57,194 nt of DNA from a virus. The stretch is from the IMG/VR virus record IMGVR_UViG_3300046616_000599, positions 1 to 57,194 of that record; one strand, 5' to 3'. The notes beneath the pieces were generated by a model. The model ran no database searches and was not told the origin of the DNA. It saw only the letters and a program-made list of their open reading frames with translations. A program made the translations under genes and the position numbers. Shown here piece after piece: positions 23,000 to 55,374 of the stretch; within the stretch, counting starts at the first letter, position 1; each line of letters begins with the position of its first letter.

Positions 23000-23019
23000 A
23001 TGTCCGCCAGAAAGCAAAA

Positions 23020-23045
23020 AGCCCCGATATCTTCGGGGCTTTTTT
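23020..23045 (+). terminator. Second terminator after the late promoter
   Basis: AGCCCCGA and TCGGGGCT pair around TATCT and are followed by T6. With the previous hairpin it should block late transcription unless it is antiterminated. Confidence 0.9.
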
Positions 23046-23195
23046 ATGCGCGCGGAAAAAGAGAGGGCGACTCCAGAGGGTGCGCTAACACCCAAAAGAG
23101 ACGCCGGATCGCAGATAGAGCCTGCAAGCCAGCCAAGGCCCTCACTGCTCGCGCGAGCGGGACGGAGCCTAGCAGAAAATCAAACGGACTTGCAG

Positions 23196-23381
23196 ATGTT
23201 GAAAGAATGCAGATGTGGAAAATGCAACAGACTTCTCGCCCGCGTGGGTGAGTTTACCGAGCTCCAGATCAAATGTTCCCGATGCGGGACGTTGAATCAT
23301 GAGAAGGCCCTGAGCCTCGAGCGATCGCCTTTGAGCGACATGAAAGCGGAGCACTCCGCGACAAATCATTCGACTCTATAG
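23196..23381 (+). CDS. Mu Com-like zinc protein
   Basis: The 61-residue product MLKECRCGKCNRLLARVGEF continues with LQIKCSRCGTLNHEKALSLE. Two Cys pairs (CRCGKC and KCSRC) and the IKCxRCxxxN core match Mu Com, which binds a stem-loop in mom mRNA and switches on its translation. No mom gene is here; three cargo genes follow, each headed by a copy of this gene's last 18 codons. A longer upstream frame was rejected. Whether it regulates the cargo is inference. Confidence 0.85.
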   Translation: MLKECRCGKCNRLLARVGEFTELQIKCSRCGTLNHEKALSLERSPLSDMKAEHSATNHSTL

Positions 23382-23383
23382 GT
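23324..23383 (+). repeat. com-tail leader, copy A
   Basis: Sixty bases starting ATCGCCTTTGAGCGACATG are the com 3' end and also the leader of the gene at 23390. They match 24071..24130 at 55 of 60 positions. They include the hairpin GCGGAG-CA-CTCCGC (23346..23359) and end with TAG and the ribosome-binding site. Confidence 0.9.
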
Positions 23384-23389
23384 ACAAAA

Positions 23390-23971
23390 ATGAAAGCAAT
23401 CAAAAACGGTTTTGCTCCGGTCGCATTGGCTGCTGCTTTGCTCGCATCGGGTAGCGCCGCCTTCGGCGCAGAGCTGGTAGTAAACGGCAGCTTTGAATCC
23501 CCTGGCTGCAGCAACGACTGCATCCTCAATACTCCTGCCCAGGCCGACTTCGTCACTGGCTGGACGACCTTTCTGTCTGGCGTTGAATACATTAACGTCA
23601 ATGCTGCGATCGGCAACTCCGCGGCCGCAGATGGTTCGATGAGCGTTGACCTCGCCAACTACACCTATCTGAATGGCGGCGGCATTCAACAGAACATCAA
23701 CACTGTTGTTGGCGCCCGTTACCGTTTGACCTTCAGCGCCGGTAACTCCACGTATGTGAATCGCAGTGGCAACGGCATCATCAACGTCAAGGTTGCCGGA
23801 CAAACGACCAGCTTCGACACCCCTGTCGCGACCAGTAATGCAACTGTCTGGGAAACCAAGACCTACGACTTCACTGCAACCACGCCTCAAACCACTCTGA
23901 GCTTCTGGAACGATCAAAATCCAAATGCTCACTTTGCCTTTATCGACAAGGTCAGTGTCGCTCCGCTCTAA
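23390..23971 (+). CDS. Secreted beta-sandwich protein (DUF642/anchor-type)
   Basis: The 193-residue protein has a signal peptide (MKAIKNGFAPVALAAALLAS, cleavage near FGA-EL) and a mature part beginning LVVNGSFESPGC, then SVDLANYTYLNGGGIQQNIN, RYRLTFSAGN and NAHFAFIDKVSV. That is the pattern of DUF642 or choice-of-anchor-C beta-sandwich proteins, which bind carbohydrate. One close Cys pair (CSNDC). First cargo gene after com. It would be exported, unlike the two downstream proteins. Function unknown. Confidence 0.8.
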   Translation: MKAIKNGFAPVALAAALLASGSAAFGAELVVNGSFESPGCSNDCILNTPAQADFVTGWTTFLSGVEYINVNAAIGNSAAADGSMSVDLANYTYLNGGGIQQNINTVVGARYRLTFSAGNSTYVNRSGNGIINVKVAGQTTSFDTPVATSNATVWETKTYDFTATTPQTTLSFWNDQNPNAHFAFIDKVSVAPL

Positions 23972-24070
23972 GGGCTAGGCGACTCAATGCGAATTTTGGT
24001 TTAACTGATTTGACTGAGCGAAGGTCCTAATCTGCCTTTTTTCAGGAAGAAAGCCTCGAGCTTCAAAACT

Positions 24071-24130
24071 ATCGCCTTTGAGCGACATGAAAGCGGAATC
24101 CTCCGCGACAATTCATTCGACTCAATAGGT
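24071..24130 (+). repeat. com-tail leader, copy B
   Basis: This copy is 55/60 identical to 23324..23383. In the com frame it is still open for SPLSDMKAESSATIHSTQ and ends in TAG (24126..24128), just before the LlpA start. Its hairpin GCGGA-ATCC-TCCGC keeps the stem while the loop differs. Confidence 0.9.
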
Positions 24131-24137
24131 GAACAAC

Positions 24138-24995
24138 ATGGCTGGACGTACACGTACTCCGTTTCAACGCAGCGGTACTTCGATTCTCCCTGCTTATCAA
24201 ACAATGTCTGCAGGGCAGTTCCTTCTTTCGCCAAACGGCCGTTTCAAGCTGTTGCTTCAAGCCGACGGCAACCTGGCGTTGCAGGACAATGGTGTAGTGG
24301 TTTGGGTCGCCAACGAAGCTACGCCTTACTCCTCCACCGTACCGTTGCGCTACAAGGTGCCGGTGCAACTCTACGTTCAATATGGCGCGTTTCTCGATGA
24401 TCCGACTCGGGGCCGTACCTGGCTGACAAACAACTCGACGTTCACCAGCGAGGATCAGTGGAACCGAACTCATATGTCGTTGCAGGACGACGGTAACATC
24501 GTGCTGATTGATTCTCAGGCGATTTGGAATGGCACTCCGTCCATTCCGCTTGATCCGACTTCCGGTGCAGTTCTGATCGGAGGCCCGGCCGAGCTACAGA
24601 TGGGAATGCCTTACTTCTGTGGCGATGGTGCACTGATCTTTCAAGGTGACGGCAACGTTGTGAACTACGGGCCGAACTGGAGTGTTCGCTGGGCTAGCTA
24701 CACCCAGAATAAGGGTGCAGTTAAGGCCGTTTTTCAGGCGGATGGTAATTTCGTGGTGTACGCGGCGAATGACGTACCGCTCTGGCAGGCAGGTACCGGC
24801 GGCCATCCTGGCGCTACTCTGCGTCTACAGCCAAATGGCAATTTGTCGATTATTCAGGAAAGCCCGGTTTGGGCTCGTTTTGGCTACACGCCGACTGTGC
24901 GTCGACGCAAGGTTTACTACCCCGATACCACCAGTCCTGAACATAACGGTACCGCGCCATACCCAACCTACGGCCATATCGGCTGGGAGTTCTGA
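24138..24995 (+). CDS. llpA: LlpA-type lectin bacteriocin
   Basis: ATG at 24138 (AGGTGA upstream) gives 285 residues starting [20 protein letters not shown], close to putidacin L1/LlpA. Two tandem monocot mannose-binding-lectin domains carry QxDxNxVxY-type motifs at about 41, 116, 169, 200 and 231; those at 169 (QGDGNVVNY) and 200 (QADGNFVVY) are intact. It ends with the short beta extension typical of LlpA. LlpA proteins kill related pseudomonads, binding D-rhamnose LPS and acting at BamA, without a cognate immunity gene. No signal peptide; release by phage lysis is inference. Confidence 0.93.
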
Positions 24996-25063
24996 TCGCT
25001 CCCACACGAGCTGACGGCTTATTGCCAAGGCTCGCCCTGCGCAGATAAGGCAGGAGTAACAAA

Positions 25064-25092
25064 AGGGTCGTGCCTGTCTGGGCGACCCTCTT
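25064..25092 (+). terminator. Hairpin after the LlpA gene
   Basis: AGGGTCG (25064..25070) and CGACCCT (25083..25089) pair around 12 bases, followed by CTCTT. A modest terminator, followed by a second one at 25119. Confidence 0.5.
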
Positions 25093-25118
25093 ATATGCGA
25101 GGAGTCTCGCACTCATTT

Positions 25119-25147
25119 CAAGGCCTCGATATTGATCGGGGCTTTTT
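25119..25147 (+). terminator. Terminator before the muramidase leader
   Basis: AAGGCCTCGAT pairs with ATCGGGGGCTT (one mismatch) around ATTG, followed by a T run. It separates LlpA from the next cargo gene. Confidence 0.75.
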
Positions 25148-25181
25148 CGTTTCAAGATTCTGAAGGTCGAGAACCTCTTTT

Positions 25182-25239
25182 ATCGCCTTTGAGCGAAACG
25201 GAACCAGCAATTACTGCTCGGTTTCACCCATTCGCTTAG
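25182..25239 (+). repeat. com-tail leader, copy C (diverged)
   Basis: It starts with the same ATCGCCTTTGAGCGA and then diverges. In the com frame it stays open for 18 codons (SPLSETEPAITARFHPFA) and ends in TAG (25237..25239), the same length as copies A and B. A different hairpin (AACCAGCA with TGCTCGGTT) replaces the GCGGA stem; CATTCG near the end is shared. Confidence 0.75.
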
Positions 25240-25251
25240 GGGAAATAACGT

Positions 25252-26400
25252 ATGAAACTAATTACCAAGCCGATCAAAAGTACAGATGAAAATATCTGTG
25301 GAGCTAGCTTTTCCTATAGCGGTACGCCGAATGGTGTAGAGGTCGCAATCGGGAGTCAGCCTCTTACTTTCAGTGCATTCCAGGATAGGGATTACGCCAG
25401 CGCCGTAAGCGGCGTGTTTGCCTTGGGTACCAAGGTGGGCAACACCACCATGCAGCTTGATGCGCGTACGGCTATCAACTTCTCGGTTTCTGAGATTTCA
25501 GGCTCTAAAGGGCCGGAGAGTGATAACACAACTGTCGCAGTTGTTTTGCTGCAGGATGCCGCACCGCTCTTCACGAAGTCTTACAGCTTGAGAGTGCAGG
25601 ACGAATCCGGCGCCTACGTCGATACCAAAGAAAGCGGTGTTTACTCTGGTGCTGGTTTTTCCATCACTATGCCTACGCGGCGCCAAGGGTCTTACGTAGC
25701 CGTTCTCAAAAGTACGGTAAATCGTAATCTCGAGTGCCGAATCGAAATTGCGGTGCCGGTTTCGGGAGCAGGTAGGATCGAGGCGATGCTCAAAGTGGAT
25801 TTCCCACTGGAAGACAAGTCAGTGGCATTCACTACCGCCGAGCTTGAGAGCATGCTTCCTGCGCTGAAAAATCATGAAGGCGAAAAGGACTTCATGTATG
25901 TGGACTCAGAGGGAAACGTAACGACGGGGGTAGGCTTTTTACTTCGTAACGAAGACGCCGCGGCCGGATACCCGTTCGTGGACTTGGACGATAATCCTGC
26001 GACCGAGGAGCAGAAGCGTGCTGAATGGCGACTTATCTCCTCGAAGTACGATAAGGACATCAAACACACAGCTGACTGGTACGAAGATTTCACAGAACTC
26101 TATCTTCAGGGCGATTTCATCGACTCGAAACTCCAGTCGCTCGTAGTCAGTGATTTCTCCGGACTTAGTCGAGTATTTCCCGGCTTTGGGGAATTTCCGT
26201 CGGCTGCACGAATTGCAATCCACGATATGTATTACAACTTGGGCGCTAGCAAGCTTCAGCAGAAGTTTCCTTCACTGATGGCGGCGATCGCTCGGCGTGA
26301 TTGGTCTACTGCCGCCGTAGAGTCTCATCGAACCAAGATCGGCGAAGACCGCAACGACTATGTTCGCGACCTGTTTTTGGTCGCCGCAACTAATCAGTAA
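25252..26400 (+). CDS. Pesticin-like muramidase with unknown N-terminal domain
   Basis: The 382-residue protein has a beta-rich N-terminal region (1..190) that I do not recognise and a C-terminal T4-lysozyme/pesticin-type domain. E209, D218 and T224 (HEGEKDFMYVDSEGNVTTG) keep the E-x8-D-x5-T spacing of T4 lysozyme. The domain cleaves peptidoglycan. A separate hydrolase with spanins (54425) looks like the phage lysis enzyme, so this is more likely a bacteriocin whose N-terminal domain binds a receptor. No signal peptide and no visible immunity gene. It could instead be a second endolysin. Confidence 0.8.
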   Translation: MKLITKPIKSTDENICGASFSYSGTPNGVEVAIGSQPLTFSAFQDRDYASAVSGVFALGTKVGNTTMQLDARTAINFSVSEISGSKGPESDNTTVAVVLLQDAAPLFTKSYSLRVQDESGAYVDTKESGVYSGAGFSITMPTRRQGSYVAVLKSTVNRNLECRIEIAVPVSGAGRIEAMLKVDFPLEDKSVAFTTAELESMLPALKNHEGEKDFMYVDSEGNVTTGVGFLLRNEDAAAGYPFVDLDDNPATEEQKRAEWRLISSKYDKDIKHTADWYEDFTELYLQGDFIDSKLQSLVVSDFSGLSRVFPGFGEFPSAARIAIHDMYYNLGASKLQQKFPSLMAAIARRDWSTAAVESHRTKIGEDRNDYVRDLFLVAATNQ

Positions 26401-26430
26401 TCTCTTCGTTTTCTGATTAATTTATCCACG

Positions 26431-26464
26431 AGGTCCCGCAATGATGCGGGACCTTCTCTTTTTT
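26431..26464 (+). terminator. Terminator between cargo island and holins
   Basis: AGGTCCCGCA and TGCGGGACCT form a perfect 10-bp stem with loop ATGA, followed by TCTCTTTTTT. Confidence 0.9.
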
Positions 26465-26474
26465 GGAGTACCCC

Positions 26475-26849
26475 ATGGCCGAACCGAGTACCGGTGCCCT
26501 GGCAGTAGCCGGCGTACTTGGCAGCGTGAGTCTGGGTGCTGCCTTTCCTACAATTGACCTAGCCGCATTGGTTGGGGCTTTTGGTGGGGCTTTTTTCTAT
26601 GTCGTGTTCGCGAAGGACATTACGTCTTGGCGCCGCGTTGGTTATTTGTTTGCAGGCTGGATCGGCGGCTATTTCGGATCTGCTGAAGTCATGGGCTGGG
26701 CTTGGACTAAGACATCAGGCTTCAGCGCATTTCTATGCGGCGCCTTCTGCGTCGTGTTACTGGCGAGTGTTATCGAATGGATGCAGACCGGCGATATGCC
26801 TCGTTGGCTCCAGTGGTTCCTCAGCCGGCTCGCCGGAAAGGAGGGTTAA
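26475..26849 (+). CDS. Putative phage holin
   Basis: ATG at 26475 follows GGAGTACCCC. The 124-residue protein has three or four membrane segments (LAALVGAFGGAFFYVVFA, GYLFAGWIGGYFGSAEV, FSAFLCGAFCVVLLASVI) and a basic amphipathic C-terminus. Size and topology fit phage holins, which permeabilise the inner membrane at lysis. It is followed with no gap by another small membrane protein. Confidence 0.75.
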   Translation: MAEPSTGALAVAGVLGSVSLGAAFPTIDLAALVGAFGGAFFYVVFAKDITSWRRVGYLFAGWIGGYFGSAEVMGWAWTKTSGFSAFLCGAFCVVLLASVIEWMQTGDMPRWLQWFLSRLAGKEG

Positions 26850-38042: not shown

Positions 38043-38066
38043 ACCCGCCATTGAGCGGGTTTTTTC
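38043..38066 (+). terminator. Terminator before the tail tube gene
   Basis: ACCCGC and GCGGGT pair around CATTGA, followed by T6. Confidence 0.85.
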
Positions 38067-54409: not shown

Positions 54410-54424
54410 GCCTGGAGAAAAGTG

Positions 54425-54850
54425 ATGGCAGCAACTGAAAAAGACCGCGACATCCTCGCCCGCACGCTGTGGGGCGAGGCTCGCGGGGAATCACCGGCCG
54501 GGCAGGTGGCCGTGGCCTGGACGATACGAAATCGTGTGTTTGATGGGAAGACTATTTCGTGGTGGGGGGAGGGATACGCCGGTGTGTGCCAGAAGCCGTA
54601 CCAGTTCAGCTGCTGGAACAAAAACGACCCGAACTTCCCCTACCTGAGCGGGGCGAAGCAGATCCCGTTTCGCGAACTGGCGCAGGCGCGGATTGCAGCA
54701 GACCAAGTGATCGACGGAAAGGTGCCTGATCCTACTGGTGGAGCGACGCACTACTACTCGATTGCCATGAAGACGGCCCCAGCATGGTCGGCGAAAGCCA
54801 AGCAGACGCTGAGGCTGGGCGGGCACGTTTTCTTCAAGGATGTGCCGTGA
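54425..54850 (+). CDS. SleB/CwlJ-type cell wall hydrolase (endolysin)
   Basis: ATG at 54425 follows GGAGAAAAGTG. The 141-residue protein matches the Hydrolase_2 family: ILARTLWGEARGESPAGQVA with the catalytic-type Glu, WTIRNRV, YQFSCWN and GATHYYSIAMK. It should cleave peptidoglycan. Coupled (TGATG) to the spanin gene, so it is the likely phage endolysin. It lacks a signal peptide and would need a holin. Confidence 0.9.
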   Translation: MAATEKDRDILARTLWGEARGESPAGQVAVAWTIRNRVFDGKTISWWGEGYAGVCQKPYQFSCWNKNDPNFPYLSGAKQIPFRELAQARIAADQVIDGKVPDPTGGATHYYSIAMKTAPAWSAKAKQTLRLGGHVFFKDVP

Positions 54851-55374
54851 TGACCGTGCCGTGGAAGCTGGTCGGAGTGCTGGCGCTGGTGCTGAGCGGC
54901 GCCGGCAGTGCTTGGCAGTTTCAGGATTGGCGCTACGACAGGCAGCTGGCCGAGCAGGCGCGGCAGCACGCCGACACCATGAATCAACTGACTCAGGCTG
55001 CCGCCACCGCGCAACAGGCCGAGCAGGAAAAGCGGCTGGCGCTCGAGCAGAAGCTGGCAGCCAGCGAGCAAACCCACTTCGAGAAAATGACCAATGCACA
55101 AAAGGATCAGGCTCGCCTGCGCGATCGCCTTGCCACTGCTGATGTCCGGCTGTCAGTCCTCCTCGACGCGGATTCAGCCCGTGGCTGTTCAGTGTCTGCC
55201 GCCCCCGGCGCCGGCGGCGTGGATCATGCAGCCGTACGAGCCCGACTTAACCCAGCGCATGCTCAACGAATTATCGCCATCACCGACACCGGCGACCGGG
55301 GACTGATCGCGCTGCAGGCTTGCCAGGCGTATGTGCGTGGCTTACATACAATTCAGCCCAGTATTCGAAGATAG
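54850..55374 (+). CDS. Rz-like inner-membrane spanin
   Basis: ATG at 54850 overlaps the hydrolase stop. The 174-residue protein has an N-terminal anchor (LVGVLALVLSGAGSAWQFQ) and a long periplasmic coiled coil (LAEQARQHADTMNQLTQAAA). With Rz1, encoded inside it in another frame, it should fuse inner and outer membranes at lysis. Confidence 0.88.
   Translation: MTVPWKLVGVLALVLSGAGSAWQFQDWRYDRQLAEQARQHADTMNQLTQAAATAQQAEQEKRLALEQKLAASEQTHFEKMTNAQKDQARLRDRLATADVRLSVLLDADSARGCSVSAAPGAGGVDHAAVRARLNPAHAQRIIAITDTGDRGLIALQACQAYVRGLHTIQPSIRR
55094..55306 (+). CDS. Rz1-like outer-membrane spanin lipoprotein
   Basis: The 70-residue frame lies fully within Rz. It has a lipoprotein signal (MHKRIRLACAIALPLLMSGC, lipobox LMSGC) and a proline-rich mature part (CLPPPAPAAWIMQPYEP), as expected for Rz1. 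Nested Rz/Rz1 is the lambda arrangement. Confidence 0.85.
   Translation: MHKRIRLACAIALPLLMSGCQSSSTRIQPVAVQCLPPPAPAAWIMQPYEPDLTQRMLNELSPSPTPATGD

Follow-up and report, generated by a model that had tools for sequence, protein, structure and literature searches.

A candidate Com-responsive RNA leader before bacteriocin and lysis genes of Pseudomonas prophages

Introduction

The closest described system to the one reported here is com-mom of phage Mu, in which the gene for Com, a small phage-derived RNA-binding protein of family PF10122, lies just upstream of the controlled gene, and the com 3' end carries a C-G-closed CC(N)3GAG hairpin before the controlled start. For a Mu-like Com, the binding motif is CC(N)2-3GAG in a loop closed by a C-G pair, the native Mu site being AUGC-CUGCGA-GCAU, and systematic evolution of ligands by exponential enrichment (SELEX) returned mostly two motif copies (PMC6483171; this and the other papers cited are represented here by parts of their text). 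Here, we analysed a 57,194-nucleotide (nt) virus record, IMGVR_UViG_3300046616_000599 (the whole stretch is referred to as the window), a prophage of a type known from Pseudomonas. In this window, a com gene is followed by three cargo genes, each preceded by a leader that shares sequence with the com 3' end. We propose that this leader is an RNA element through which Com controls translation of the cargo.

Genes resembling com are already known from Pseudomonas. Approximately 90% of the L-type bacteriocin genes outside P. aeruginosa follow a com-like gene, and com-like genes also precede other tailocin cargo, lytic enzyme, and levansucrase-type genes (Ghequire et al., a review, section 10; PMC6240691). 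In addition, llpA has been linked to prophages (PMC2647930). The com-cargo linkage observed here is the same, but section 10 of the review, in the text available, presents no RNA element, com-free leaders, or mechanism, and calls the role of Com unexplored. A related element, the phage-associated promoter element (PAPE), has been described from the levansucrase genes of P. syringae; this stretch of ~500 bp with com precedes lscB/C, a glycosyl hydrolase gene, and a bacteriocin gene, and was proposed to be mobile (PMC3899960, PMC3973379). In the available parts of these papers, PAPE is a promoter element and Com is reported to be uninvolved in lscB expression, unlike the RNA leader considered here.

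The Pseudomonas leaders also differ from the Mu system. They contain two tandem Com-type hairpins plus a third hairpin, and the Shine-Dalgarno sequence (SD) lies outside the third hairpin, whereas the Mu start signals lie inside an inhibitory stem. Furthermore, unlike in Mu, the leader has been copied without com before several other genes. On this comparison, the element appears to be a variant of Com-mom control that has not been described before. An earlier note on this DNA, made from the sequence alone, knew of no described bacteriocin island built in this manner. The linkage itself is in print, since the available parts of PMC6240691 place com-like genes before llpA, tailocin cargo, and a lytic enzyme gene; no account of the RNA element or of its com-free copies was found in the literature searched, outside which most subscription papers fall, and these two are new as far as we found.

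Results and discussion

Anatomy of the leaders in the window

The com gene (23196..23381; all features given here are on the plus strand) encodes a 61-amino-acid (aa) zinc-ribbon protein with two CxxC pairs of cysteines, which matched PF10122 at 68 bits (cut-off 22.9; E 4.8e-19) and phrog_6417, 'translational regulator'. Its 3' end doubles as leader A. The 15-mer ATCGCCTTTGAGCGA occurs at 23324, 24071, and 25182, i.e. in leaders A, B, and C, respectively. Leaders A and B are identical at 55 of 60 bases (92%), and in the com frame all three leaders read through 18 codons to a TAG located 8, 9, and 12 bases 5' of the cargo ATG. The presence of a Mu Com-like gene followed by three cargo genes, the extent of the A/B match, the 18-codon frame, and a GCGGA hairpin found in A and B with a different hairpin in C had all been pointed out in the earlier note, and each was reproduced, the last by folding. 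The note's suggestion of a Com-responsive leader gained support, but the GCGGA hairpin that it singled out is not the likely Com site, which is instead formed by the shared 15-mer together with a hairpin upstream of it.

As RNA, ATCGCCTTTGAGCGA folds into UCGC-CUUUGA-GCGA (hairpin b, HP-b; general form UCGC-C(NNN)GA-GCGA), which reads CC-UUU-GAG and in all three leaders (23325..23338, 24072..24085, and 25183..25196) fits the published Com motif with its C-G-closed loop (PMC6483171). A second Com-motif hairpin (HP-a; typical form AGGC-C(NN)GA-GCCU) lies ~20 nt 5' of HP-b, namely AGGC-CCUGA-GCCU in leader A (23305..23317; also placed by alignment to the search model described below), AAGC-CUCGA-GCUU in leader B (24051..24063), and AGGU-CGAGA-ACCU in leader C (25164..25176). 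The stems (AGGC/GCCU, AAGC/GCUU, and AGGU/ACCU) are fully paired in every case and the loop is always C-NN-GA; the motif is closed by C-G in A and B, and by U-A in C. Leader C, a com-free copy like leader B, thus resembles the other two beyond the 15-mer, with HP-a in the equivalent position. The presence of two Com-type hairpins per leader matches the two-copy outcome of SELEX (PMC6483171). The third hairpin is the GCGGA hairpin (HP-c) in leaders A (GCGGA-GCAC-UCCGC, 23346..23359) and B (GCGGA-AUCC-UCCGC, 24093..24106), and in leader C it is a fold of unrelated sequence in the GGAACCAGC...GCUCGGUUUC region (25200..25226). An SD-like AGGU overlapping the com stop codon (23380..23383), AGGUGA (24127..24132), and AGGGGA (25238..25243) can be read before cargo genes 1, 2, and 3, respectively.

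A search model built from such leaders (R2) recovered the three leaders of the window at 97.6, 93.2, and 44.1 bits (E 4e-27 to 4e-11), the next best match being 9.8 bits (E 0.74). An Rfam search of 23000-26500 returned six matches at E up to 10, none at its gathering score. Just 5' of leader C, a terminator-like hairpin is present at 25120-25145, and a sigma-70-type scan from this hairpin to cargo gene 3 found no promoter-like site.

Conservation of the leader RNA

In total, 159 com loci were compared, 79 from genomes and 80 from viral contigs. In 158 of these, all except locus L056, the 3' region of com yielded a hairpin whose loop is C-NNN-GA; its stem has 3 bp in nine, and in one locus (L080) the script picked the upstream hairpin instead. 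Within com, the codons TCG...AGC of HP-b are nearly invariant and the middle codon specifies L, V, M, K, S, W, Q, T, or P, while another com lineage reads the same leader RNA in a different frame (V-x-A-x-E-R). Both hairpins are kept in phages B3, UMP151, Komp_PAO1_1, JD024, PAN70, and Smp131 and in plasmid pF010_1, several of which carry changed stems (CAGC/GCUG, GCGC/GCGC, ACGC/GCGU, and CCGC/GCGG). The HP-a loop of DVM-2008 com1 is six bases long rather than five. R2 matched six of eight named com phages at E < 0.001 and JD024 at E 0.16, with no match in Mu.

Com-free leaders were defined by a leader-profile E < 1e-3 and a hidden Markov model test for upstream com remnants, yielding 29 distinct contexts; this strict set supersedes an earlier count of 33 orphans, which took in leaders with degraded com upstream, and com-resident leaders identical in sequence to com-free ones were kept out of it. 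The HP-a loop is present in 26 and the full 4-bp HP-a stem in 23 of the 29, compared with 6 and 0, respectively, of 30 chance contexts with the same core motif. Because the profile that selects the leaders begins at HP-b, HP-a provides an independent test. The 36 nt 3' of HP-b are also more stably folded than shuffled versions in com-free and com leaders (mean z -2.11 and -2.01, respectively) but not at chance sites (-0.46).

Covariation was assessed in an alignment (A2) of 53 leaders (20 com-free and 33 com-linked) out of 54, one incomplete row being dropped. Across the three hairpins, 40 cells are changed on both sides of a pair, against 6.3 in shuffled and at most 11 in slid versions, and such changes occur at all four pairs of HP-a. 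The clean covariation evidence is that of HP-a, since HP-b served as the anchor and HP-c pairing was used in row selection. RNAalifold recovered the same three hairpins, the third one shortened. Strong comparative support of this kind argues that the conserved repeat is a real and widespread regulatory RNA element.

A first alignment (A1, 45 of 51 leaders) was set aside as too uniform, with double changes at 2 of 9 pairs. The exact 14/15-mer was likewise rejected as a sole marker: TCGCCNNNGAGCGA occurs 5-11 times per genome in nine whole genomes, against 6-10 times for a backward control, and many of the viral contigs listed with the exact 15-mer represent chance occurrences. In a negative set of 29 chance contigs with the 15-mer, several of which are mutually similar and thus not all independent, the best R2 score was 21.4 bits.

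As a separate observation, intrinsic-terminator-like hairpins with a Com-like loop (CCGC-CNNNGA-GCGG, then a T run) are present at 38045 of the window and at many other loci. In 79 loci, 17 of 207 terminator-like hairpins have a CC(N)2-3GAG loop, compared with 5 that have the reverse motif.

Genes behind the leader and co-occurrence with com

Homologs of the cargo genes were fetched by protein from viral contigs and then searched with R2, which found the element before 70 of 70 loci in five cargo families, some of these contigs having also supplied model rows. The element ends 4-20 nt 5' of the matched start in 21/21 LlpA, 5/5 cargo-3, and 9/9 DUF642 loci (the weakest, L449, at 23.7 bits), and all four colicin-M-like genes have it by the start codon. 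An uncharacterised family of ~100-120 aa follows the leader immediately at each of its 31 viral loci (L460-L490; L481 is cut by the contig end, and the start in L485 was not resolved), with further members at L378:787-1131, L381:788-1108, and L382:1748-2089; the members tested had no Pfam or NCBIfam match. Further cargo includes a 213-aa secreted-looking protein and GH19-type lysozymes, the genes of which lie 11-16 kb away from a com match in six genomes and have a com-linked leader in others (L410-L413). The levansucrase genes on pDC3000A and the large plasmid of 1448A carry the full element in the PAPE com tail, i.e. HP-a, HP-b, a third hairpin, and the SD, like the window leaders.

Among 398 Pseudomonas genomes, R2 matches were found in 104, PF10122 in 119, and both in 102. 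Most R2 matches sit inside com, so places away from com provide the fairer test. The adjacency test covered 150 R2 places among those listed and 129 typed com places; the com places omitted either had no listed R2 place in their genome or lay at a distance from any. For 39 of the 150 R2 places, no PF10122 match was found close by, although a degraded com precedes at least one of them (L401); 38 of these 39 are in com-bearing genomes. Fifteen remote places in 12 genomes have no com match within 20 kb on their contig, some of the contigs being short, and 11 of these 12 genomes have com elsewhere (P 1.5e-5 at a base rate of 30%). In the twelfth (G086, L405), which has no com match, HP-a and HP-b are lost, and HP-c and the SD are kept. 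HP-b is also lost, with the third hairpin kept, in G150 (L407) and G331 (L402), although com is present elsewhere in both genomes. These three leaders suggest that the element decays where com is absent or remote. The other element genome without com (G112) has a borderline R2 match only (E 0.0086). Outside Pseudomonas, 274 genomes of the class yielded five with a com match, three of them over the cut-off, one being the Pseudomonas centre G005.

Proposed control by Com

The anatomy of the element, its covariation and spread, its links to cargo and com, and the recombination breakpoints described below are established by computation. On these grounds, we consider it roughly 75% likely that the cargo genes of the island are each headed by a translation leader that responds to Com, and that they form a Com regulon in which Com binds every leader and frees its SD, as in Mu mom. 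Several bacteriocin and cell-lysis genes are probably turned on together by Com, since every one of them opens with a folded RNA tag of the type that Com is known to grip. From 5' to 3', the proposed leader consists of HP-a, with a C-NN-GA loop on a 4-bp stem, then, past a short spacer, HP-b, with a C-NNN-GA loop on a UCGC stem, followed by a third hairpin whose shape appears to be conserved and whose sequence appears to be free, the SD, and the start codon. The zinc-ribbon protein probably binds at HP-a and HP-b. In the absence of Com, the SD is predicted to be closed by pairing with the HP-b sequence: minimum-energy folds have this pairing in all 27 com-free leaders examined and in 151 of 177 com leaders, and the mean chance of an unpaired SD is 0.10-0.11 in the free leader, 0.36 with HP-b held, and 0.31 with the interior shuffled. 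The more open SD after shuffling indicates that the leader interior favours closing. During transcription, HP-a and HP-b would likely fold first, Com would trap both, and the SD would remain open. One Com could in this way raise translation of the adjoining gene and, in trans, of every gene behind a leader copy; for the first cargo gene, ribosomes translating com may be a further means of opening the leader. The steps that we infer are that Com binds the leaders in Pseudomonas, that the SD is opened, and that Com acts in trans.

Several observations weigh against this scheme. The long SD-closing helix was considered as a conserved structure, and 86.9% of the cells of the whole structure are paired, yet the helix itself has no both-side changes and is thus retained only as a predicted step. 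Holding HP-b comes at a cost of 6-7.5 kcal/mol and left the SD less open in 8 of 177 com leaders. HP-b is nearly invariant, with few compensatory cases for its pairing, and is part of the anchor. Six of the 29 com-free leaders have no full HP-a stem, and in the tailocin lysozyme leaders the HP-a loop is C-NN-GC or C-NN-GU. The com 3' end of Mu, the sole system with published binding, has HP-b only and no HP-a. Finally, in P. syringae PG4180.M6 a premature stop in the plasmid-borne com left lscB expression unchanged (PMC3899960, in the part available), although other com copies acting in trans could have masked an effect.

The leader as a recombination joint and alternative explanations

The window llpA is 87-97% identical to the llpA genes of four other loci (L003, L015, L037, and L091), the upstream DNA is dissimilar, and identity starts at HP-b. 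Conversely, leader B and locus L082 have 267 nt of upstream DNA in common (92%) and different cargo. Among pairs with at least one com-free leader, 93 match downstream only and 11 upstream only. Since the leaders have common sequence and cargo identity begins at the leader, the leader also appears to serve as a homology joint for the exchange of cargo genes. The earlier note had offered the joint and the Com-responsive leader as readings that need not exclude each other; both gained support, and with breakpoints at the leader both can hold. Its further idea that com-tail copies should precede cargo genes elsewhere was borne out, com-free copies standing before cargo genes in many genomes.

These breakpoints would also be expected if the repeat were a joint and nothing else, i.e. 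a leftover com tail that supplies homology for the stacking of cargo and has no regulatory role. We consider this unlikely, because it leaves unexplained the compensatory HP-a changes in com-free copies, the constant distance to the SD and start codon at all 70 cargo loci, the agreement with the Com motif, and the presence of com in 11 of the 12 genomes with remote copies. Slightly less probable still is that translational coupling or transcription alone accounts for the arrangement, with ribosomes on com opening the next leader and the Com protein not acting on it. The com stop codon does touch the SD of cargo gene 1, and the unchanged lscB expression in the com stop mutant (PMC3899960, same part) agrees with such coupling; com-free leaders, however, have no upstream frame to couple to (a com-frame stop lies within 45 nt upstream in 15 of 29), and they keep both Com-type hairpins.

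Conservation of the stretch as a peptide, either an 18-codon tail or a leader peptide, is very improbable. The stretch is coding in com, and 28 of the 29 com-free copies have no stop in the com frame for 17 codons or more, but another frame is open as long in 25 of 29 and the com frame is exactly 18 codons in only 10, so the frame that the earlier note had emphasised is not conserved in its exact length, whereas the RNA structure is. In addition, com keeps a constant HP-a to HP-b spacing (169 of 169 with a 5-base loop), whereas in com-free copies this spacing shifts in one-base steps (-16 in 16 of 26). Different com lineages translate this RNA in two frames, and the TCG...AGC codons are near-invariant while the codon between them changes.

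Beyond the island, the Com-responsive leader may be part of something wider, with Com as a trans-acting post-transcriptional regulator of a distributed Pseudomonas regulon and the leader as a portable element that any gene could acquire through recombination; we regard this extension as evenly balanced between true and false. If true, common phage-timed control would extend to bacteriocins, tailocin lysozymes, and DNA-modification genes, and even to enzymes encoded on plasmids or chromosomes, such as levansucrase. The Com-responsive leader as such suggests a testable role for com before most llpA genes, a point on which the literature gives no answer, and would explain the joint timing of killing proteins and lysis. 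It would also show a regulatory RNA doubling as a cargo-exchange joint, and the leader could be used as a tag in sequence searches for new bacteriocins and effectors, such as the uncharacterised family behind it at 31 loci.

Cargo genes and neighbouring features of the window

Cargo gene 1 (23390..23971) encodes a 193-aa protein of the DUF642 / choice-of-anchor C type (PF04862, E 2.8e-17; TIGR04362 below its cut-off). The product of cargo gene 2 (24138..24995; 285 aa) is a putidacin-L1-type lectin-like bacteriocin, with an NF033557 score of 421.7 bits (cut-off 275) and a full-length match (residues 1-264) to the solved Putidacin L1 chain 3m7h_A (E 3.2e-111). Pfam reported one B_lectin stretch in this protein, and the full-length match implies tandem B-lectin domains. 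Cargo gene 3 (25252..26400) encodes a 382-aa protein with a lysozyme-like C-terminal half (phrog_7, endolysin, E 2.1e-41); a Pfam search of this protein gave no match, its matches among solved structures were T4-lysozyme-like and only weak (best E 0.056), and tblastn against named phages found no match.

Two holin genes (26.5-27.1 kb) follow cargo gene 3, and NinG-, holin-, and terminase-like genes are present in the window. A twin, with all three leaders spaced as in the window, was identified in Pseudomonas sp. GM80. At 54422-55374, far from the holin genes, lies a second candidate endolysin gene, which we take to be SleB-like, followed by an Rz-like gene.

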